Part shown: piece by piece, positions 285 through 10,148 of the stretch
Position numbering within the stretch: the stretch's first letter is position 1
Layout: the number at the start of each line of letters is the position of its first letter
Origin: Opitutia bacterium
Lineage (GTDB): Bacteria; Verrucomicrobiota; Verrucomicrobiia; Opitutales; Opitutaceae
Direction of reading: 5' to 3'
Assembly: GCA_016190985.1 (NCBI GenBank)
Contig: JACPPI010000029.1
Location: 18,269 to 82,268 of the forward strand
Length of the DNA: 64,000 nt
Position numbers and translations under genes: made by a program
The notes under the pieces: model-generated
What the model was told of the DNA's origin: nothing
Seen by the model: only the letters and a program-made list of their open reading frames with translations
Database searches by the model: none

Positions 285-331
285 TGTAGGTTGGGCTTTG
301 TGTCACGCGTCGGGGTAAACTCCGACCCACA
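285..331. repeat. 47-bp palindromic element between sufU and sufS
   Basis: The element begins TGTAGGTTGGG and ends CCGACCCACA, with an inner GCGTCGGGGT/ACTCCGAC core, so it can fold into an imperfect hairpin in either strand. It fills most of the sufU-sufS gap. It belongs to the general class of dispersed extragenic palindromes found elsewhere in this window, but no second copy of this family was seen here. Confidence 0.6.
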
Positions 332-334
332 GTT

Positions 335-790
335 TCAATCGGAGGTTCTTTCTGTAGTCACCGGCGTGGCGTCGCCCTTGGCGGCGTTGAGTGCGGCGTG
401 CCAGCCGAGCGTGGCGCATTTGATGCGGGCGGGGAATTGGTGGACGCCGGCAAGCGCGGCGAGGTCGGACATGTCGTCCTCGGCGACCTTCCCGGTGGTC
501 ACCATCTTGTGGAGTCCGGCGTAGATGGCCTCGGCCTCGGCGATGGTCCGACCCTTGAGGTTGAGGGTCATGAGCGAGGCGCTGGCCTGGGAGATGGCGC
601 AGCCGCTGCCCTGGAAGCTGACGTCGGCGATGCGGTCGCCCTCGAGCTTCACGTAAACGGTGATCTGGTCGCCGCACATGGGGTTGTTGCCGGAGCCGAC
701 GCGGTTGGCCGCGGGCAGCACCGAGTAGTTCCGCGGGCGGCGGTTGTGGTCGAGGATGACGGACTGGTAGAGCTCGGTGAGGTCGTGCAT
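335..790 (-). CDS. sufU: Fe-S cluster assembly protein SufU
   Basis: The protein has 151 residues, the usual SufU length. The track ORF starts further upstream, but MHDLTELYQSVILDHNRRPRNY at 790 is the normal family start. The three zinc/cluster cysteines are present in MCGDQ, GCAIS and KCATLGW, and the insertion between the second and third cysteine separates SufU from IscU. In SufU systems this protein accepts the persulfide from SufS. It lies directly upstream of sufS on the same strand. The 151 bp upstream of its start hold no gene; they include a short hairpin (GCCGAGggtggaaCTCGGC) near 868. Confidence 0.93.
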   Translation of the reverse strand: MHDLTELYQSVILDHNRRPRNYSVLPAANRVGSGNNPMCGDQITVYVKLEGDRIADVSFQGSGCAISQASASLMTLNLKGRTIAEAEAIYAGLHKMVTTGKVAEDDMSDLAALAGVHQFPARIKCATLGWHAALNAAKGDATPVTTERTSD

Positions 791-941
791 CGGCCGGAAA
801 GTGAAGGGCGAGGCTACGCCGGCACGCGCGTTTGGCAAACAGAGTTTCGGGCATAACGATCTGTGCCGAGGGTGGAACTCGGCCTCTGGACGGGTTTTCA
901 GAGCGAGCGACAGAGCAACGCGTCTGGAGGCCGCGTTCACC

Positions 942-2999
942 TCACTCCGGCGGCAGGGGCGGGGCGGTCAGGCCGGTGGGCGGGGGCACGACCTCGAGCA
1001 CGCGGGCGATGAGCCGGCGGACGCGCACGACGCCGACGATGCGGCGGCCGGTCTTGTCGGCCACGACGGGGATGGTCTTGAAGCCGTGCTCGCGGAAGGC
1101 GGACGCCGCGACGAGGGCGCTGTCGGTGGCGGCGAGTGCGACGGGGTCCTTCTTCATGAAGTCGGCGAGCGGGGTTTCGGGTTTCACGCCGCTGTTCTGG
1201 GCTCGGAGCAGGTCGGTCAGCGTGATCATGCCGTCGAGCCGCGCGCCGTCGGGCGAGACGAAGAAGAAGTCGGACGGGTGCCGGGCGAACTGGTGGGTGA
1301 CCTCGAAGAGCGAGTCGGTGGGCTTGAGCAGCGGGGTGGGGGCCGGGTCGATGAACTCCGCCAGTTGGAACTGCCGCAGGGCGGCGAGCACGGCGGGGCG
1401 CTCCTGCCAGGCGGCGGAGGAACGGCGGGTGATGGCGGCGGTGAGCGCGGCGCGGAGCGGCGCGAGGGACTTGGAGATGGTGGTGAAGACGTTGCGGCCC
1501 ATGACGACGACACCGACGGGCGTGCGGGCCCGGACCGAGGCGGCACGCGGCTGGTTGCTGAGCAGCGCCTGCTCGCCGAAGAAGTTGCCCACGCCGAGCG
1601 TGGCGATGACCTCGCCCTCGGGTTTCTCGGGCGAGGCGCGCACGATCTCCACCTCGCCCGACTCGATGACGTAGAAGCCCGACGGCGGCTCGCCCTGCTT
1701 GATGATGTAGTCGCCCGGCTCGTAGTGCGCGTGCGAGACGCGCTCGGTGACGTCGGTCTTGATGCAGCTGAGGTCGCGGGGGAAGATGAGCAACCAGGCC
1801 CAATCGAAGCCGACCTGCACGCGGCGCGACCACGACGGGAGTTTGAAAAGATAGACGCCGCGCCAGGCGAACCAGGCGAGGAAGCCGGAGAGCCTGAAGC
1901 CAAACATCTCGGCCACGGCGCTGTGACCGCCGATGGAGCAGAGCTGGCCGAGCACCTTGAAGGAGAACGGACGCGTGGGCTCGCCCGCGAGGGTGCGGAC
2001 GATGTTGGCGGCGCACTGCCGGCCCTGCCGCTCGGCGAACTGGCCGGTGGGCGGCGAGGGCTGGGCGTCGTGGGCGTTGAGGATGTTGGCGCAGTCGCCG
2101 ATGGCCCAGGCGTTGGCGCGGCCGCGCAGCCGCATGTCGGTCTCGGTGAGGATGCGGCCTTTTTCCTTGGGCGTGTCGAGCCGGTCGACGACCGGCGCGG
2201 TGGTGCTGCCGATGGTGCAGACGATGGTGCCGCCGCGCACGAAGCCGTCCTTCAGGCCCACGCCCTCGCCGGTGGCGAGCATCACGCGGGCGTTGAGCCG
2301 CATGGTGACGCCGGCCTGCTCCATTTTCTTCCGGGCGAACTCGCGGAGCTGCGGGCTGATCTCGGGCAGCAACTGGTCGCGCGAGTGGATGAGCGTGACG
2401 GTGACATCCTCGGCGCTGATCTTGGAATAGAACCGCAGGCTGGAGCGGACGAGGTCGTTGATCTCGCCGGCGGTCTCGACGCCGCTGTAGCCGCCGCCCA
2501 CGACGACGAAGGACAGATACCAGCGCCGCTTCACCGGGTCGTCGCAGACCTCGGCCTTTTCCATCGAGGAGAGGATGTGGGTGCGCAGGACGGCGGCGTC
2601 GCCGACGGTTTTCAGGGGGAACGCGTGGTCCGCCATGCCGGGCACGACGTTGAGGTTGGAGATGTTGCCGCAGGCGATGACCACGTGGTCGTAGTCGAGG
2701 TGGCGCGGCTGGCCGTCGTGGCTCTCGAATTCGATGCGGCTGCCGGCGAGGTCGACATTGCGGACCTCCTCGGTGCGGCACTGGACGCGCGGCAGGAGCT
2801 GGCGCAGGGGGACGATGACATCGTCGAGGCTCAGCGACGAGCCGACGGCATCGGCCAGCAACGGGCTGAAGACGAGGTGGTTTTCCTTGTTGAAGAGGAC
2901 CAGCTCCGCGTCGCCGCCGCGCAGGTGCGCGGACAGGGTCTGGGCACACTTCACCCCGCCGAAGCCTCCGCCGATGATGACAATGCGTTTTGCAGGCAT
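942..2999 (-). CDS. NDH-2-type NADH dehydrogenase fused to cNMP-binding and CBS domains
   Basis: The protein has 685 residues starting MPAKRIVIIGGGFGG; the longer track ORF runs back through the tRNA and is not used. Residues 1-400 are a type II NADH:quinone oxidoreductase: FAD-binding GGGFGG at 10-15, NAD-binding VVVGGGYSG at 165-173, the second FAD motif WAIGDCA at 298-304, and a hydrophobic membrane-associating stretch near 368-400. Residues about 405-510 form a cyclic nucleotide-binding fold (YEPGDYIIKQGE, FGEQALL, RAASVRA). Residues about 550-670 look like a CBS pair (DFFFVSPDGARLDGMITLTDL, FKTIPVVAD). NDH-2 oxidises NADH and reduces quinone without proton pumping; the added domains suggest control by a nucleotide ligand, which is inference. 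It lies on the opposite strand from the complex I operon and shares orientation with sufU-sufS. Confidence 0.85.
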   Translation of the reverse strand: MPAKRIVIIGGGFGGVKCAQTLSAHLRGGDAELVLFNKENHLVFSPLLADAVGSSLSLDDVIVPLRQLLPRVQCRTEEVRNVDLAGSRIEFESHDGQPRHLDYDHVVIACGNISNLNVVPGMADHAFPLKTVGDAAVLRTHILSSMEKAEVCDDPVKRRWYLSFVVVGGGYSGVETAGEINDLVRSSLRFYSKISAEDVTVTLIHSRDQLLPEISPQLREFARKKMEQAGVTMRLNARVMLATGEGVGLKDGFVRGGTIVCTIGSTTAPVVDRLDTPKEKGRILTETDMRLRGRANAWAIGDCANILNAHDAQPSPPTGQFAERQGRQCAANIVRTLAGEPTRPFSFKVLGQLCSIGGHSAVAEMFGFRLSGFLAWFAWRGVYLFKLPSWSRRVQVGFDWAWLLIFPRDLSCIKTDVTERVSHAHYEPGDYIIKQGEPPSGFYVIESGEVEIVRASPEKPEGEVIATLGVGNFFGEQALLSNQPRAASVRARTPVGVVVMGRNVFTTISKSLAPLRAALTAAITRRSSAAWQERPAVLAALRQFQLAEFIDPAPTPLLKPTDSLFEVTHQFARHPSDFFFVSPDGARLDGMITLTDLLRAQNSGVKPETPLADFMKKDPVALAATDSALVAASAFREHGFKTIPVVADKTGRRIVGVVRVRRLIARVLEVVPPPTGLTAPPLPPE

Positions 3000-3077
3000 G
3001 GGGTGGTGCGAGGCCAGTGTGCCCCGGGCTATTCCCAAGGCAATACGCGGTTGGGCTACTCCACGGTCATGTGTGAG

Positions 3078-3138
3078 GCCCTCCTTCGCCAAGGCTTCAG
3101 CCGTCACCCTGCGGGCTATGGCTGACGAGACGGAGGGC
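3078..3138. repeat. Palindromic element upstream of the NDH-2 fusion gene
   Basis: The arms GCCCTCCTTCGCC and GACGGAGGGC, plus inner CTTCAGCC/GGCTATGGCTG, make an imperfect inverted repeat. A related string (CATCCTCCTTCGCCC...GGGCTACGGCGGA) occurs inside the 5' part of rarA at about 25645, so this looks like a dispersed family. Confidence 0.5.
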
Positions 3139-3142
3139 AGTT

Positions 3143-3163
3143 TTCTTTCGGTTCCCGAAAGAA
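3143..3163 (-). terminator. Hairpin immediately 3' of tRNA-Ser
   Basis: A perfect 9-bp stem (TTCTTTCGG / CCGAAAGAA) with a 3-nt loop starts three bases after the encoded CCA of the tRNA. It could end the tRNA transcript or mark processing. No T-run follows, so a classical intrinsic terminator is not proven. Confidence 0.4.
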
Positions 3164-3166
3164 GGC

Positions 3167-3256
3167 TGGCGGAGAGGGGGGGATTCGAACCCCCGATAGC
3201 CTTGCGGCTATACGTGCTTTCCAAGCACGCGCATTCGACCACTCTGCCACCTCTCC
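3167..3256 (-). tRNA. tRNA-Ser (anticodon GGA)
   Basis: On the minus strand the sequence folds as a class II tRNA. The 7-bp acceptor is GGAGAGG/CCTCTCC with discriminator G and an encoded CCA. The anticodon arm is CGTGC-TTGGAAA-GCACG with anticodon GGA. There is a long variable arm (ATAGCCGCAAGGCTAT), and the T arm is GGGGGTTCGAATCCCCC. The long variable arm and G73 fit serine; the anticodon reads UCC/UCU codons. Confidence 0.95.
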
Positions 3257-3401
3257 GTGTTCGCGAAAGGGTCGAGTTAAGTTAATAGTCGCCGCTGCGG
3301 TCAACGGTAATTCCCCGCCGGAAATTTTCTCCGCAATAAGGCCGAAAGCGCCTTGCGTGAGGGGGGTGCGGTGGTAGCTTGGGTCGATTTTTTACACGCC
3401 C

Positions 3402-3911
3402 ATGGTCAACGCCAACCCGGAGCTCGCCTATAACAGCAAAATCGAGGGTGACATCACCGTCACCCGGGCCGATGCCGCGATCAACTGGCTGCGGACAAAC
3501 TCCATGTGGCCGATGCCAATGGGCCTGGCCTGCTGTGCGATCGAGCTGATGGCTTCGGCCGCCAGCCGGTTCGACATCGCCCGCTTCGGGGCCGAGGTCA
3601 TGCGCTTCTCCCCCCGCCAGTCGGACTGCATGATCGTGGCCGGCACCGTCACCTACAAGATGGCCCCGGTGGTCCGGCGCATCTATGACCAGATGGCCGC
3701 CCCGAAATGGGTCATCGCGATGGGGGCCTGCGCCAGTTCGGGCGGCATGTATCGGAGCTACGCCACCCTGCAGGGTGTCGACCGCATCATCCCGGTGGAT
3801 GTCTACATCAGCGGCTGTCCGCCGCGCCCCGAGGCCCTGCTCGACGCCCTCATGAAGTTGCAAACCAAGGTGCGCGGCGAGCGCTCCTGCGCAAAACTCC
3901 TCAGCGCCTGA
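3402..3911 (+). CDS. nuoB: NADH-quinone oxidoreductase subunit B
   Basis: This 169-residue subunit holds cluster N2, the last Fe-S centre before quinone in complex I. The four ligand cysteines are visible: the tandem pair in LACCAIELM, then [10 protein letters not shown] and [13 protein letters not shown]. It opens the nuo operon in this window. The 145 bp between the tRNA and this start contain no nuoA, although nuoA precedes nuoB in most bacterial operons. The next gene, nuoC, starts 16 bp after its stop. Confidence 0.97.
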
Positions 3912-3927
3912 CGACTCCGCTGCGCGC

Positions 3928-4548
3928 ATGACCACCGACGTCGACCTTCCGACCGCCGTCAGCCGGCAATTCCCCTCGGCCGCGCCGCGTCCGAGCCTGG
4001 ACTGCCCGGCTTTCAACGTCCCGGCCGGCGAGGCCCTCGCGCTGCTGCAATACCTGCGCGACGCCCAAGCTTGCGATTTCCTGATGGACCTGACCGCGAT
4101 CGACGGGAGCGCCGGGCAATCCCCGCGCTTCACCGTGGTCTGGCACCTCTATTCCAGCACCAAGCACACCTACGTCCGCGTCGCGGCCCCCTGCGCCACC
4201 GACGCCGAGCCGGCGATGCCGACCGCCACGCGCCTGTGGGCGGGGGCCGACTGGCACGAGCGCGAGGTCTACGACATGTTTGGCATCAAGTTCACCGGCC
4301 ACCCCGACCTGCGCCGCATCCTGATGTGGGACGCCTATCCGTATTTCCCGCTCCGCAAGGAATTCCCGCTCGCCGGACTGCCGACCGAGATGTCCGACGC
4401 CGACATCAACGCCGAGACCGGCGTGGGCGTCATCTCCGCCCCGATGGCCGGCGGGCCGTTCGTGGCCACCCCGGGCGAGCCGATGAGCGCCGCCGAGCCG
4501 CGCGCCAAGGACGAGGCGTGGAACGAAAAAAAGGAGAAGCCAGAATGA
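3928..4548 (+). CDS. nuoC: NADH-quinone oxidoreductase subunit C
   Basis: The protein has 206 residues and is the 30-kDa-type peripheral arm subunit. The family signature is clear in the middle: GADWHEREVYDMFGIKFTGHPDLRRILM followed by YPLRKEFPL-type sequence (FPLRKEFPLAGL). It contacts NuoD and NuoB near the quinone site but binds no cofactor. It is a separate gene rather than a NuoCD fusion. The charged C-terminal tail (about residues 165-206) is longer than the conserved core. Its stop overlaps the start of the next small ORF as ATGA. Confidence 0.95.
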   Translation: MTTDVDLPTAVSRQFPSAAPRPSLDCPAFNVPAGEALALLQYLRDAQACDFLMDLTAIDGSAGQSPRFTVVWHLYSSTKHTYVRVAAPCATDAEPAMPTATRLWAGADWHEREVYDMFGIKFTGHPDLRRILMWDAYPYFPLRKEFPLAGLPTEMSDADINAETGVGVISAPMAGGPFVATPGEPMSAAEPRAKDEAWNEKKEKPE

Positions 4549-4799
4549 GCAATGGGCATGAAGAGATGATTTTGGAATTAGCACGGAAACTGAAAGCAGC
4601 ACACGTTTCTTACCGAGAACATGTCACGCTTCCGCATGCATACAATTCGACCACCAAGCACCTGCCAAAAGAGCACATTGGAGAGTTCTGGATCGAGATG
4701 GCGCAAAGCGTGATCGATTATGATCTAAGTCTGAAGCGTAGCTGGTCCGCTAATGCGGGCGACTTGAAAGGTAATCCGGAAGGCGAGAAACCCGAGTAA
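4545..4799 (+). CDS. Small unknown protein between nuoC and nuoD
   Basis: The 84-residue ORF starts MSNGHEEMILELARKLKAAH. Its ATG overlaps the nuoC stop (ATGA) and its TAA is followed directly by the nuoD start, so it is translationally embedded in the operon. The DNA is visibly poorer in GC than nuoC and nuoD and uses many A/T-ending codons, suggesting separate acquisition. The sequence is soluble and mostly helical by composition, with no signal peptide or membrane segment. It is not a known Nuo subunit that I recognise. The tight overlaps at both ends argue that it is really translated. Confidence 0.65.
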   Translation: MSNGHEEMILELARKLKAAHVSYREHVTLPHAYNSTTKHLPKEHIGEFWIEMAQSVIDYDLSLKRSWSANAGDLKGNPEGEKPE

Positions 4800-4800
4800 C

Positions 4801-6033
4801 ATGGCCGCCGATTTCTCATTTCCCGATGCCGCCGCGAAGGCCGCGACTCTCCCCAAGGAGTTCGACTCGGAAAAGATGTCGCTCTCGATGGGCCCGTCGC
4901 ACCCGTCCACCCATGGCGTGCTGCGCATCCAGTTCGAGCTCGACGGCGAGATGGTGACCAAGGCCGACCCGGTCATCGGCTACCTGCACCGGGGGGACGA
5001 GAAGATCGCCGAGAACATGACCTACAACCAGTTCGTGCCCTACACGGACCGCCTGGACTACATCGCCCCGCTGGCGAACAACATGGCCTACGCCATCGCG
5101 GTCGAGCGCCTGGCCGGCCTCGAGGTGCCGGCCCGCTGCCAGGCGATCCGCGTCCTCACCGCCGAGATGGCGCGGGTGTCGTCGCACCTGATGGGCCTCG
5201 GCGCCTACGGCATCGATGTGGGCGCGTGGACCGTGTTCATGTATTGCTTCGAGGAGCGCGAGAAACTCTACAAGCTCTTCGAGGAGCTGACCGGCGCCCG
5301 CTTCACCACCAGCTACACCCGCATCGGCGGCCTGCAACGGGACGTGCCCGCCGGCTGGACGCGAAAGGTGGACGCGTTCTGCGACCAGTTCCTGCCGATC
5401 CTCGAGGAGATCCTCTCGCTGCTCTCGCGCAACAAGATCTTCCTCGACCGCACGGTCGACATCGGCGTCATCTCGCCGGCCGACGCCGTCGCCTACGGCC
5501 TGACCGGCCCGAACCTGCGCGGCTCCGGCGTGCCGAACGATCTCCGCAAGGACCGGCCTTATTCCGGCTACGGGCAATACGAGTTCGACGTGCCCGTCGG
5601 CTCGAAGGGCGACTGCTACGACCGCTACCTCTGCCGTGGCGAGGAGATGAAGCAGTCCGTCCGCATCATCCGGCAGATCGTGAAGAATTTCCCGGGCGGC
5701 GACTGGTATGCGAAGGACGCGCGCAAGATCTTCGCCCCGCCGAAGGACAAGGTGCTCACCTCGATGGAGGAGCTGATCAACAACTTCATGATCGTGACCG
5801 AGGGCCCGCAGATGCCGGCCGGCGAGGTCTACTTCGAGGCCGAGAACCCGAAGGGCGTGCTCGGCTTCTACATCGTGAGCAAGGGCGGCGGCGTGCCCTA
5901 CCGCCTGAAGATCCGCAGCCCCTCGTTCTGCAATCTGTCCATCCTGCCCAAGCTCTGCGTCGGCCATCTCGTGTCCGACGTCGTCTCCATCCTCGGCTCG
6001 CTCGACTTCGTCATGGGCGAGTGCGACCGGTGA
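4801..6033 (+). CDS. nuoD: NADH-quinone oxidoreductase subunit D
   Basis: The 410-residue 49-kDa-type subunit forms the quinone-reduction cavity with NuoB. Family motifs are clear: SMGPSHPSTHGVLRI near residue 30, the GYLHRGDEKIAE stretch, RVSSHLMGLGAYGIDVGAWT, and the C-terminal DVVSILGSLDFVMGECDR. Length matches the family. It starts two bases after the preceding small ORF. A 142-bp gap holding a large palindrome separates it from nuoE. Confidence 0.97.
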   Translation: MAADFSFPDAAAKAATLPKEFDSEKMSLSMGPSHPSTHGVLRIQFELDGEMVTKADPVIGYLHRGDEKIAENMTYNQFVPYTDRLDYIAPLANNMAYAIAVERLAGLEVPARCQAIRVLTAEMARVSSHLMGLGAYGIDVGAWTVFMYCFEEREKLYKLFEELTGARFTTSYTRIGGLQRDVPAGWTRKVDAFCDQFLPILEEILSLLSRNKIFLDRTVDIGVISPADAVAYGLTGPNLRGSGVPNDLRKDRPYSGYGQYEFDVPVGSKGDCYDRYLCRGEEMKQSVRIIRQIVKNFPGGDWYAKDARKIFAPPKDKVLTSMEELINNFMIVTEGPQMPAGEVYFEAENPKGVLGFYIVSKGGGVPYRLKIRSPSFCNLSILPKLCVGHLVSDVVSILGSLDFVMGECDR

Positions 6034-6037
6034 TGAC

Positions 6038-6167
6038 AGTAGCGAGCATCGAGTAGCGAGTAGTGAGCATGATCAAACCAAACACAGTCACCAATCTTCA
6101 CCCGCTCAGCGGAGTTTCGCGGCTGGCCTTTCTTCTGCTCGCTAGCCGCTACTCGCTACCCGCTACT
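6038..6167. repeat. Long inverted repeat between nuoD and nuoE
   Basis: The left arm (6038-6069, AGTAGCGAGCATCGAGTAGC...) and right arm (6136-6167, TGCTCGCTAGCCGCTACTCG...) are close reverse complements. They are themselves built from reiterated AGTAGCGAG units. The loop is about 66 nt. The element fills the whole nuoD-nuoE gap and would form a stable structure in the operon mRNA. Confidence 0.7.
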
Positions 6168-6175
6168 TCCCAGCG

Positions 6176-6670
6176 ATGAATCTCAAGCCCGCCACGCTCC
6201 AGCAGATCGACGAGGTCATCACCCATTATCCGGTGAAGCGCAGCGCCGCGCTGCCGCTGCTGCACCTGGTGCAGGAGGACGCCGGCTGGATCTCCCCCGA
6301 GGCCATGGAGTGGATCGCGCAAAAACTCGGGCTGCAGCCGATCAACGTCTACGAGCTGGTCACCTTCTACCCGATGTTCCGGCAAAAACCGATCGGCCGC
6401 CGCCACATCAAGGTCTGCCGCACGCTCTCGTGCGCGCTCACGGGCGGCTACAAGGTGTGCGAGCAGTTTCAGCGGGAGTTCGGCTGCCATACCGGCGGGG
6501 TCTCGGCCGACGGCGAGGTGACGGTTGATTTTGTCGAGTGCCTGGCGAGCTGCGGCACCGGCCCGGTGGTCATGATCGACGACGACCTCCACGAGAAAGT
6601 CGATGCCGCCAAGGTGAAGGCCTTGAGCGACCAAATCAGAACCGCGGCCTCCGGCCGCCCGGCCCCATGA
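6176..6670 (+). CDS. nuoE: NADH-quinone oxidoreductase subunit E
   Basis: The 164-residue 24-kDa-type subunit is part of the NADH-dehydrogenase module and carries a [2Fe-2S] cluster (N1a). The thioredoxin-like cluster domain shows KVCRTLSCALTGGYKVCEQF and VEC-LASCGTGPVVMIDDDLHEKV, giving four ligand cysteines. The N-terminal helical region (YPVKRSAALPLLHLVQEDAGWIS) is typical. The stop overlaps the next gene's ATG. Confidence 0.96.
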   Translation: MNLKPATLQQIDEVITHYPVKRSAALPLLHLVQEDAGWISPEAMEWIAQKLGLQPINVYELVTFYPMFRQKPIGRRHIKVCRTLSCALTGGYKVCEQFQREFGCHTGGVSADGEVTVDFVECLASCGTGPVVMIDDDLHEKVDAAKVKALSDQIRTAASGRPAP

Positions 6671-6990
6671 AGAAACACCGCATCCTCAGCGTCCCGCCGA
6701 TCCGCTTCGGCATCGTGCTCGCCCTGATCAACGGCTTCGCCGGCATGATCCTGGCCCCGCTCCTCCTCATCACGCTCGGCATCGCGTTCACCGCCACGGA
6801 AAGCGGCGTCGTGATTGTGCCCAAGATTTTCCCGACCGTCCCCTGGTTCCTCGCCGGCGGCCTGGCCATCTTCACGCCTGTCATCAACGCCGTCGGCGGC
6901 TTCCTCGCCGGCGTGCTCATCGCCACGGTCTACAATTTCTCCGCCCGCTGGACGGGCGGCATCGAGATCGTCCTCGACGAGAAGCCCTGA
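6667..6990 (+). CDS. Small two-helix membrane protein between nuoE and nuoF
   Basis: The 107-residue protein overlaps the nuoE stop as ATGA and ends 3 bp before nuoF, so it is embedded in the operon. Two long hydrophobic segments (about residues 14-40 and 56-85) flank a short loop. The sequence VVIVPKIFPTVPWFLAGG and the C-terminal ARWTGGIEIVLDE suggest a small integral membrane protein with a cytosolic tail. It lacks the acidic and proline features of NuoA and is not a recognised complex I subunit. I do not know its function; a role in assembly or the membrane arm is only a guess from position. Confidence 0.75.
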   Translation: MKKHRILSVPPIRFGIVLALINGFAGMILAPLLLITLGIAFTATESGVVIVPKIFPTVPWFLAGGLAIFTPVINAVGGFLAGVLIATVYNFSARWTGGIEIVLDEKP

Positions 6991-6993
6991 CCC

Positions 6994-8352
6994 ATGCCCG
7001 CCCCGCAACAACGCCGCCTGATCTTCGCCCACATCGACGAGCCGGGCTACAGCAACGACCTCGCGTGCTACCTCCGGCACGGCGGCTACGCGGTCATGAA
7101 GCAGGCGTTCGCGCGCAAGCCCGAGGAGCTGATCGACGAGGTGAAGAAATCCGGCCTGCGCGGCCGGGGCGGCGCGGGTTTCCCCTGCGGCGTCAAATGG
7201 ACCCTCGTCGACCGCAAGAGCGGCAAGCCGATCTACCTCATCGTCAACGCCGACGAGTCCGAGCCCGGCACCTTCAAGGACCGTTGCATCATCCACCAGG
7301 ACCCGCACCAGCTCATCGAGGGCACGATGATCTCCTGTTTCGCGAACAACGTGAAGCAGGCCTACATCTACATCCGCGGCGAGATGCCGCACGGCGCGCG
7401 CATCCTGGAAAAAGCCATCGCCGAGGCCCGCGCGGCCAACCTTGTCGGCCAAAACATCCTCGGGTCGAACTACAGCTGCGAGATCTATGTCCACCGCGGC
7501 GCCGGCGCCTACATCTGCGGCGAGGAGACCGGCCTGATCGAGTCGCTCGAGGGCAAGCGCGCCCACCCGCGCATCAAGCCGCCGTATTTCCCCGCCGTGC
7601 TCGGCCTCTACCAGTGCCCGACCATCGTCAACAACGTCGAGACCCTCTGCCACGTGAAGCACATCGCCGACATGGGCGGCGAGGCCTACACCAAGATCGG
7701 CACGCCCAACAACACCGGCACGCGCATCTTCTGCGTCTCCGGCCATGTGCAGCGTCCGGGCCACTACGAGTTCGAGTGCGGCAGGATCACGCTGGGCCAG
7801 TTGCTCAACGACGTCTGCGGCGGCCCGCGGCCCGGCCGCACCTTCAAGGCCGTCATCCCCGGCGGCTCGTCGGCCAAGATCATGCGCTTCGGCGAGCGCT
7901 ACAAGGGCAAGCGCAAGGTCGGCGCCGAGATGGTGGACTACGACTGGGGCGTCGAGGATGTCCCGATGGACTTCGATTCGCTCGGCATGATCGGCACGAT
8001 GGGCGGCTCCGGCGGCGTCATCGTGATGGACGACTCGGTCAACATGGTCGAGGCGCTGGCCAACATCAACGCGTTCTACTCGCACGAGAGCTGCGGCCAG
8101 TGCACGCCCTGCCGCGAGGGCTCGCTGTGGATGAAGAAGATCACCACGCGCATGGTCCACGGCGACGCGCGCGAGCAGGACGCCGCCCTGCTCAAGGGCG
8201 TGGCCGACCAGATCCCCGGCCGCACCATCTGCGCCTTCGGCGAGGCCTGCTCGTGGCCCACCCAGAGCTTCCTCGCGAAGTTCGGCGACGAGTTCAAAAA
8301 CTACCACGAGATGAAGAAGACCGCGGCACCCTCGGCCGCCCCGCTCATCTGA
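6994..8352 (+). CDS. nuoF: NADH-quinone oxidoreductase subunit F
   Basis: The 452-residue 51-kDa-type subunit binds NADH and FMN and carries cluster N3. Visible motifs are the FMN/NADH-site glycine-rich GLRGRGGAGFPCGVKW, NADESEPGTFKDR, GAGAYICGEETGLIESLEG, and the [4Fe-4S] ligands ESCGQCTPCREGS with a distant C-terminal cysteine in GRTICAFGEACSWP. Length and order are normal. It starts 3 bp after the small membrane ORF. Confidence 0.97.
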   Translation: MPAPQQRRLIFAHIDEPGYSNDLACYLRHGGYAVMKQAFARKPEELIDEVKKSGLRGRGGAGFPCGVKWTLVDRKSGKPIYLIVNADESEPGTFKDRCIIHQDPHQLIEGTMISCFANNVKQAYIYIRGEMPHGARILEKAIAEARAANLVGQNILGSNYSCEIYVHRGAGAYICGEETGLIESLEGKRAHPRIKPPYFPAVLGLYQCPTIVNNVETLCHVKHIADMGGEAYTKIGTPNNTGTRIFCVSGHVQRPGHYEFECGRITLGQLLNDVCGGPRPGRTFKAVIPGGSSAKIMRFGERYKGKRKVGAEMVDYDWGVEDVPMDFDSLGMIGTMGGSGGVIVMDDSVNMVEALANINAFYSHESCGQCTPCREGSLWMKKITTRMVHGDAREQDAALLKGVADQIPGRTICAFGEACSWPTQSFLAKFGDEFKNYHEMKKTAAPSAAPLI

Positions 8353-8358
8353 TCTTTT

Positions 8359-8441
8359 CAACCACGAATGGACACGAATACACACGAATCAAGCGAGACC
8401 AGGAAGGCATCCCTGACCCATTCGTGTCTCTTCGTGGTTTC
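8359..8441. repeat. Inverted repeat between nuoF and nuoG
   Basis: The left arm AACCACGAATGGACACGAAT (from about 8359) pairs with the right arm ATTCGTGTCTCTTCGTGGTTT (ends 8441). The arms contain a reiterated ACACGAAT unit. Similar ACCACGGAT-type arms recur at 11564, 14926, 46132, 55994 and 63757, so this is a dispersed family or set of related families. Confidence 0.7.
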
Positions 8442-8459
8442 TAATCCTTCTTTCCAGAG

Positions 8460-10148
8460 ATGATCGCTCCGCCCAAACCCGACCTCGTGACCGTCAACAT
8501 CGACGGCAAGGACATCGCCGTGCCCAAGGGCACGAACGTGATCGAGGCCGCCCGGCACCTCGGGATCGAGATTCCGCACTACTGCTACCACCCGAAGCTG
8601 ACCGTCGCCGGCAACTGCCGCATGTGCCTCATCGAGATGGGCACGCCGGCCATGGACCCCGCCACCAAGGCGCCGATCCTGGACCCGGCCACGGGCAAGC
8701 CGAAGATCAACTGGATCCCGCGCCCGCAGATCGGCTGCGCCACCAACGTCTCGCCCGGCCTGCACGTGAAGACCGACTCGCCGATGGCGCGCGAGAGCCG
8801 CGAGGGCGTCACCGAGTTCCTCCTCATCAACCACCCGCTGGACTGCCCGATCTGCGACCAGGCCGGCGAGTGCAAGCTCCAGGAGCACTCCACCGCCTAC
8901 GGCCGCGGCTACTCGCGCTTCGTCGAGCAGAAGAACGTCAAGCCCAAGCGCACCCAGCTCGGGCCGCGCGTCACGCTCGACGACGAGCGCTGCATCCTCT
9001 GCACCCGCTGCGTGCGCTTCAGCAAGGAGGTCGCCAAGGACGACGTGCTCGGCTTCGTCGACCGGGGCAGCTACAGCACGCTGACCTGCTATCCCGGCCG
9101 GCAGCTCGAGAACAATTACTCGCTCAACACGGTGGACATCTGCCCGGTCGGCGCGCTCACCTCGACCGACTTCCGCTTCAAGATGCGCGTCTGGTTCCTC
9201 AAGCAGACGCCGTCCATCGACCCCGAATCCTCCGTCGGCGCCAACACCGACGTCTGGAGCCGCGAGGGCGTCATCTACCGCATCACCCCGCGGCAGAACG
9301 ACGCGGTGAACGACACCTGGATGGCCGATTCCGGCCGCGCGCTCTACAAACAGGTGAAAGCCGACAACCGCCTGCTCGCGCCCACGCTCAATGGCGCCGC
9401 CACCGCCAACGAGATGGCGCTCAAGGCGGTCGCCAATCTCTTCCAGGCCGGCTCGGTCGCGATCGTCGGTTCCGGCCGCAGCTCGGTCGAGGAGCAGTTC
9501 CTCACCCGGAAGCTCGCCGCCGCGCTCCAGGTTTCCGCGCACCTCGTCAGCCGGGTGGGGCTCGGCGACCGGATCCTCGTCTCCGCCGACCGCAACCCCA
9601 ACGTCCGCGGTGCGCTTGTCACCGGGCTGATCGCCGCTTTGCCGGCGTCGCAGCTCACCGCGCTCGCGGCCGACGTCGACGCGGGCCGGGTGAAGACGGT
9701 GGTATCCGTGGGCGAGGATCTCACCGCCGCCGGCCTGACCGCCGCGCAGCTCGCGAAAATCTCGATCGTCTATCTCGGCACGCACAAGAATGCCACGAGC
9801 GCCGCCGCCCAGGTCGTCATCCCGACGCTCACGGTGTTTGAGAAATCGGGCACATTTGTGAACCAGCAGTTCCGGCTCCAGAAATTCGCCCGGGCGGTCC
9901 CCGGCCCGGCGGGCGTCAACGACGACCTCATCACCCTGGCCGAACTCGTGGCGGCGGCCGGAGGCGGCATCATTTCGTTCGAGCTCGGCGCGCTGTGGAC
10001 AGTCATCGCCGCCGAGGTGAGGCCGCTCGCGACCGTCACCTACGCCAATCTTCCCGCCACCGGCCTGTTGCTCGACGCCACGCCGTGGGCCGCGCTGCCT
10101 TTCTGCGAAGGCGAGACGCTCCACTTCAAACCCGCCGCCACAGCCTGA
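8460..10148 (+). CDS. nuoG: NADH-quinone oxidoreductase subunit G (short form)
   Basis: The 562-residue 75-kDa-type subunit carries the Fe-S chain of the NADH module. It has an N-terminal [2Fe-2S] ferredoxin domain (HYCYHPKLTVAGNCRMCLIEM), a His-Cys3 [4Fe-4S] site (NHPLDCPICDQAGEC) and the following ligands RCILCTRCVRF and DICPVGALT. The C-terminal molybdopterin-type region is much shorter than in enterobacterial NuoG (about 900 residues), and the N7-type ligands are not evident. It starts after the palindrome-filled gap and ends 5 bp before the next small ORF. Confidence 0.95.
   Translation: MIAPPKPDLVTVNIDGKDIAVPKGTNVIEAARHLGIEIPHYCYHPKLTVAGNCRMCLIEMGTPAMDPATKAPILDPATGKPKINWIPRPQIGCATNVSPGLHVKTDSPMARESREGVTEFLLINHPLDCPICDQAGECKLQEHSTAYGRGYSRFVEQKNVKPKRTQLGPRVTLDDERCILCTRCVRFSKEVAKDDVLGFVDRGSYSTLTCYPGRQLENNYSLNTVDICPVGALTSTDFRFKMRVWFLKQTPSIDPESSVGANTDVWSREGVIYRITPRQNDAVNDTWMADSGRALYKQVKADNRLLAPTLNGAATANEMALKAVANLFQAGSVAIVGSGRSSVEEQFLTRKLAAALQVSAHLVSRVGLGDRILVSADRNPNVRGALVTGLIAALPASQLTALAADVDAGRVKTVVSVGEDLTAAGLTAAQLAKISIVYLGTHKNATSAAAQVVIPTLTVFEKSGTFVNQQFRLQKFARAVPGPAGVNDDLITLAELVAAAGGGIISFELGALWTVIAAEVRPLATVTYANLPATGLLLDATPWAALPFCEGETLHFKPAATA

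Follow-up and report, generated by a model that had tools for sequence, protein, structure and literature searches.

The window (the whole stretch of 64,000 nucleotides that was analysed, from an Opitutia bacterium) carries near its start a gene for a protein in which an NDH-2-type flavoprotein is followed by a cNMP-binding (CNB) domain and a pair of CBS domains (Table 1). Its 685 codons contain no internal stop and show strong coding periodicity and codon-position bias, with a GC3 of 0.94-0.97 in each of the three parts. Pfam matches to Pyr_redox_2 (E 4e-38, residues 5-326), NDH2_C (E 2e-10, residues 350-409), cNMP_binding (E 5e-22, residues 425-508) and CBS (E 2e-15, two stretches) all lie above the curated cut-offs. 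A domain search and a structure prediction had been proposed as checks on an original prediction, made from the letters of the DNA, that an NDH-2, a Crp-type ligand domain and a CBS pair are fused at this position. The Pfam matches and the intact reading frame bear out both the architecture and the coordinates, and in AlphaFold models the local confidence is good for each of the three parts (mean pLDDT of 86.7 for the whole protein and 88.4 for the C-terminal half alone).

Table 1 Features of the fusion gene and its surroundings (positions are those of the window).
Feature	Position	Strand	Basis or remark
Whole gene, 685 aa: NDH-2-type flavoprotein, cNMP-binding domain and CBS pair	942..2999	-	ATG 2999, TGA 942-944
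NDH-2-type part, residues 1-410: two Rossmann domains and NDH2_C membrane-interaction region	1770..2999	-	Pfam, fold match
GxGxxGxE of the NAD(P)H site, residues 168-175 (G168, G170, G173, E175)	2475..2498	-	(near-)invariant in family
H205, end of the second NAD(P)H-domain strand	2385..2387	-	phmmer alignment
Quinone-site motif G-Q-F-A-E-R, residues 319-324	2028..2045	-	variant of AQxAxR
cNMP-binding (CNB) domain, residues about 418-530	1410..1748	-	Pfam, phmmer to PKG/PKA-R, fold match
Phosphate-binding cassette FGEQALLSNQPRAAS, residues 474-488, with E476 and R485	1536..1580	-	alignment
CBS1, residues about 548-608; GMITLTDLL (GhhTxxD) at 590-598	1176..1358	-	Pfam, fold match
CBS2, residues about 609-670; nucleotide motif lost (GVVRVRRLI)	990..1175	-	Pfam stretch 612-668
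sufU-like gene (NifU_N), downstream of the fusion gene	335..790	-	Pfam
tRNA-Ser (GGA), between the fusion gene and nuoB	3167..3256	-	directly upstream of the fusion gene
Divergent complex I operon, first genes nuoB, C, D, E, F, G	3402..10148	+	Pfam for B, C, D, F, G

The complex I operon was also described in the original prediction as lying in the opposite orientation, and it does diverge from the fusion gene, with nuoB starting at 3402 on the forward strand. The order complex I genes, fusion gene and sufU is found in eight named loci, with nuoB 0.3 to 5 kb away, all of them from Opitutaceae or close Verrucomicrobia. Other close relatives keep sufU with no complex I nearby; sufU is the steadier neighbour and is found after the fusion gene in almost every Opitutaceae locus whose flank is long enough (among L044-L058). 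Farther downstream of the fusion gene in L046 there is a SufS-like gene. In members from other phyla neither complex I nor sufU is adjacent, save for a single locus (L064) with sufU only. This locus comes from a MAG called Magnetospirillum, where a contig of 1.4 Mb carries a 69-78% identical copy with sufU after it, the reading frame of the copy seemingly being shifted near residues 224-230; the contig is probably one of Opitutaceae that was misnamed in binning.

Adjacency to complex I was rejected as a general rule, as it is limited to part of the Opitutaceae. The suggestion, drawn from the position of the gene, that the cell chooses between two entry routes for electrons is thereby weakened, and the argument is local to one family. 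Both routes, complex I and a single NDH-2, are present in the source genome; no second NDH-2 was found there, the other Pyr_redox_2 proteins matching at best with E 0.03. No CRP-type site lies upstream of the gene (across the window, 10 matches versus 11.5 expected by chance), and neither a sigma-70-like promoter nor a gene-end terminator was found within 300-3500.

Relatives were sought by scanning one genome per species across 84,980 species. Full-length relatives are encoded by Opitutaceae and other Verrucomicrobiota, SAR324, Nitrospira and Obscuribacterales (Melainabacteria), and by MAGs of Blastocatellia (Acidobacteriota), 'Deltaproteobacteria' (Myxococcota) and Dadabacteria; because many relatives are MAGs, single phylum assignments can be wrong. 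The full architecture recurs in several phyla with 44-91% identity over the whole length, and Pfam places Pyr_redox_2 together with cNMP_binding in 39/39 sampled relatives, 33 of which also have CBS, so that a chance or assembly fusion was rejected. Strong matches to the query occur in 29 of the 387 genomes of the window's own phylum, some of these matches being unfused or CBS-less forms. A 1127-residue 'fusion' in G429 (L146) was discarded, since it is merely an unfused NDH-2 within an extended open frame.

In a quick tree of the enzyme part, the proteins with the full architecture form a single clade, clade A (100% SH-aLRT), from which its sister, the Verrucomicrobial clade B, a Nitrospirales group and the forms with CNB and without CBS are separate. 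The tree of the CNB domain splits clade A from the CBS-less forms weakly (support of 59), and hence no single origin is claimed for the fusion. Purifying selection acts on all three parts: dN/dS between Opitutaceae proteins is 0.09-0.23 for the NDH-2 part, 0.15-0.53 for CNB and 0.06-0.39 for CBS.

Residues 3-401 of the model have the NDH-2 fold and match the S. aureus enzyme (5na1; Z 46.5, 389 residues, rmsd 2.1) and that of C. thermarum (4nwz; Z 46.4); over residues 1-400, the likeness to these structures and to yeast Ndi1 is at Z 41-48. The dinucleotide motifs of the GxGxxG type (G10/G12/G15 and G168/G170/G173), the catalytic Glu of GxGxxGxE (E175, equivalent to E172 in S. aureus and kept in 22/22 clade A sequences), the invariant GD pair contacting FAD (G301-D302) and the membrane-interacting C-terminal region (NDH2_C, residues 350-409) are all held in common with the known enzymes. 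The window protein differs from them in its C-terminal CNB and CBS domains, in a GQxAxR quinone motif and at two further positions, where Glu is replaced by His and Trp by Cys. NDH-2 quinone motifs are AQxAxQ, AQxAxR and APxAxQ, of which AQxAxR is a known alternative (PMC5299459). GQFAER is AQxAxR with the first Ala changed to Gly, as in 19/22 clade A sequences; relatives have AQFAxR.

The two remaining differences concern the electron donor. The WxxG motif near the NADH adenine is 99% conserved in an NDH-2 survey that left out sequences with extra fused domains, and was a trait of that set and not a criterion for inclusion in it (PMC5299459). In the window protein WxxG is absent (C261-T-I-G264), with Cys in place of Trp; most members of the fused family have Cys or Ser at this position, and two of three unfused relatives have Trp. 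H205 stands where the S. aureus NDH-2 has Glu and is invariant in clades A and B; it is also found in unfused relatives, and is thus a trait of the branch and not of the fusion. Both deviations lie at the adenine end of the NAD(P)H site, where a missing acid often accompanies NADPH use. NADH as the donor is an assumption, and the departure of H205 and C261 from the NDH-2 norm makes NADPH use possible; since the Trp of WxxG is missing, the enzyme is called 'NDH-2-type' here, with NADH or NADPH as possible donor. These two residues, together with the synteny with sufU, would also suit an enzyme that takes NADPH or another donor instead of main-chain NADH and feeds, for example, a redox step near Fe-S assembly. 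That alternative appears rather unlikely, given that GxGxxGxE with E175, the GD pair, NDH2_C and the NDH-2 fold are all present and that H205 belongs to the branch.

The CNB domain matches the folds of PKG II, PKA-R, HCN and SthK (Z about 16-17), cAMP- and cGMP-bound domains among them. Its cassette aligns without gaps with the PKG/PKA cassettes (phmmer), and E476 and R485 are in register with the ribose-binding Glu and the phosphate-binding Arg. Clade A keeps the Glu in 22/22 sequences and both the Arg and Ala487 in 19/22. Clade B keeps the Glu (34/34) and has lost the Arg throughout, to Trp in 25 sequences and Tyr in nine. Based on these sequence comparisons, the CNB domain of the window protein is predicted to keep an intact-looking canonical cAMP pocket. 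In an Opitutaceae-rich branch of the family (L039, L042, L088, L095, L105, L107 and L118), NDH-2 is followed by a shortened, degenerate CNB with neither FGE nor the Arg, and the CBS pair is missing; this is apparently a decayed sensor.

Class III cyclases can produce cAMP or cGMP. Ser/Thr after the cassette Arg has been linked to cGMP preference in PKG, while the PKA cassette has Ala at this position (PRAAT). The ability of the cyclases to make either nucleotide and the Ser/Thr found after the Arg in 12/22 clade A sequences are compatible with cGMP rather than cAMP as the CNB ligand. With the PKA-like Ala of the window protein (PRAAS) against it, this is considered improbable.

The two CBS domains are packed as a pair, as seen from the two Pfam stretches and from a match to the pair fold (Z about 16-17), whose neighbours include CBSX2 with AMP and AcuB with ADP, AMP or ATP (Z about 16). 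In the window protein the GhhT/SxxD motif is present in CBS1 (GMITLTD) and absent from CBS2 (GVVRVRR). The same pattern is seen in clade A, with the motif kept in CBS1 (Thr 19/22, Asp 20/22) and lost from CBS2, whereas in clade B it is CBS1 that is degenerate and CBS2 that carries the complete motif (Asp 34/34). A single canonical motif thus remains in each clade, in agreement with a single working site in every pair. The CBS pair had been put forward as one of a kind that often binds adenosine nucleotides; the motif for this is kept in CBS1 and lost in CBS2, and the pair may sense adenine nucleotides. Missing ligand pockets had been named as the outcome that would count against the original prediction; judged from the residues, the cNMP pocket is intact and one of the two CBS motifs is kept, so this outcome was not observed.

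The retention of one GhhTxxD site per clade, in different CBS repeats, and the AMP-, ADP- and ATP-bound proteins among the fold neighbours would also be expected if the CBS pair were the working sensor (for AMP/ATP, or for NAD(H) or SAM) and the CNB domain a relic or a binder of some other ligand. In clade A, however, conservation is stronger in the CNB cassette than in the CBS domains (mean column entropy of 1.08 bits versus about 1.7), and CNB fusions that keep the Arg and have no CBS occur in Planctomycetota, Ignavibacteriota, Acidobacteriota and Myxococcota. A sensor of the CBS type with an idle CNB domain therefore seems a poor fit and is given little weight.

With seven matches to class III cyclases in the source genome, a source of the cNMP ligand within it is plausible. 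Among 48 genomes that encode a relative of the fused or CNB type, the median number of cyclases per Mb is 0.89 where the CNB Arg is kept (n=27) versus 0.21 where it is lost (n=21), an about fourfold difference (Mann-Whitney p 2e-4, uncorrected for kinship). Outside the Verrucomicrobiota the corresponding p is 0.01, with just four genomes lacking the Arg and kinship again uncorrected. As the association is confounded by kinship and genome completeness, it is supporting and not decisive. A genome of the same genus as the source (G375) has no match, yet six cyclases. In the SAR324 genome G484, a 9.7 Mb MAG that contains L059, class III cyclase matches number 88, many more than in any other genome checked.

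Two further proteins of the source genome carry CNB domains. The first (G000:C33 around 3687-3941; L023, 478-2289, forward strand) is an NrfD-type membrane protein (PF03916) whose CNB domain, with the canonical cassette FGEVSSLTGTARVAT, is apparently inserted between membrane segments. The second (G000:C4 around 85772-86662; L024, 418-2265, reverse strand) is a redox protein in which tandem cNMP-binding domains are fused to 4Fe-4S ferredoxin domains. CNB domains on electron-transfer proteins thus recur in the source organism.

The pTM values of the AlphaFold models (0.61 for the whole protein, 0.67 for the C-terminal half) are too low for domain placement, which the model leaves undefined and which was dropped; an allosteric path is consequently unreadable from it. 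A short, flexible linker (residues about 411-419) is one of two stretches where the model is least certain. The undefined interdomain placement is in keeping with a mainly structural role for CNB and CBS, in setting the oligomeric state or in docking to the membrane or a partner, with no regulatory ligand. The same role would account for clade B, where the whole fusion is kept with Trp or Tyr for the Arg (34/34) and a degenerate CBS1. For structure alone there would be no need to keep the clade A cassette at the level of single residues (Glu, Arg and Ala487, as given above), and retention of the Arg tracks cyclase number; a purely structural role is thus held to be unlikely.

Taken together, the most probable reading, to which we assign a probability of about 0.58, is cAMP-gated NAD(P)H:quinone oxidoreduction by an enzyme with its own C-terminal sensor and a second nucleotide input; that ligands bind, which way they shift the activity and which donor and acceptor serve are inferred. 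The protein would be an NDH-2-type, peripheral-membrane enzyme that passes electrons from NAD(P)H to quinone, with its activity set allosterically by that sensor. The CNB domain would bind 3',5'-cAMP (or another cyclic mononucleotide) from the class III cyclases of the cell, and the single remaining site of the CBS pair would bind AMP, ADP or ATP. Binding would shift the CNB/CBS module, through linker 411-419, relative to the membrane-facing C-terminal helices and the quinone entrance, such that the quinone pool would receive electrons without proton pumping only in some nucleotide states.

The fusion in clade B without the Arg (34/34), and the Opitutaceae relatives without CBS and most of the CNB motif, indicate that the sensor is dispensable for persistence of the module. 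A wider proposal, that in a widespread NDH-2-type family cAMP and adenylate state gate the non-pumping entry of electrons into respiration post-translationally and through a single polypeptide, and that the cAMP pocket has been lost repeatedly in cyclase-poor lineages, is tentative and falls a little short of an even chance.

Both halves of the combination have precedents. Kannan et al. (2007) catalogued fusions of CNB with pyridine nucleotide-disulphide oxidoreductases and, separately, with tandem CBS domains, and suggested NADH- and ATP-related roles for such fusions (PMC2246266, Table 1). Their 'Bact_Pyrredox' family resembles the window protein in having CNB behind the oxidoreductase domain and a canonical cassette, but has tandem CNB and no CBS, whereas the window protein has one CNB and a CBS pair (PMC2246266). 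In their 'CBS' family the tandem CBS is C-terminal to CNB, as in the window protein, and linked sensing of cAMP and energy has already been suggested for it (PMC2246266); no NDH-2 part is described for this family, and its cassette, GERALLAGGPYSLTARA, is without the Arg, like that of clade B and unlike that of the window protein. Thioredoxin reductases with an N-terminal CNB, such as ATII-TrxR, likewise place CNB on a flavoprotein with two dinucleotide-binding domains, but the enzyme is a different one, the CNB is at the opposite end and there is no CBS (PMC6544261). The EF-hand NDH-2s also have a built-in signal-binding module (PMC5299459), which in their case lies inside the enzyme and responds to calcium, whereas that of the window protein is C-terminal and would respond to nucleotides. 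No description of the NDH-2-CNB-CBS triple was found in the literature searched, which covered few subscription journals. What appears to be new here is the combination of NDH-2 with CNB and CBS; fusions of CNB with oxidoreductases and with CBS have been known since 2007.

In bacteria, cAMP is known mostly as a signal for transcription. The clades that keep the Arg and those that lose it, and the forms with and without CBS, provide natural controls within the family, which makes the idea testable. If it is true, a second messenger would act directly, fast and without gene expression, on pumping versus non-pumping NAD(P)H oxidation.
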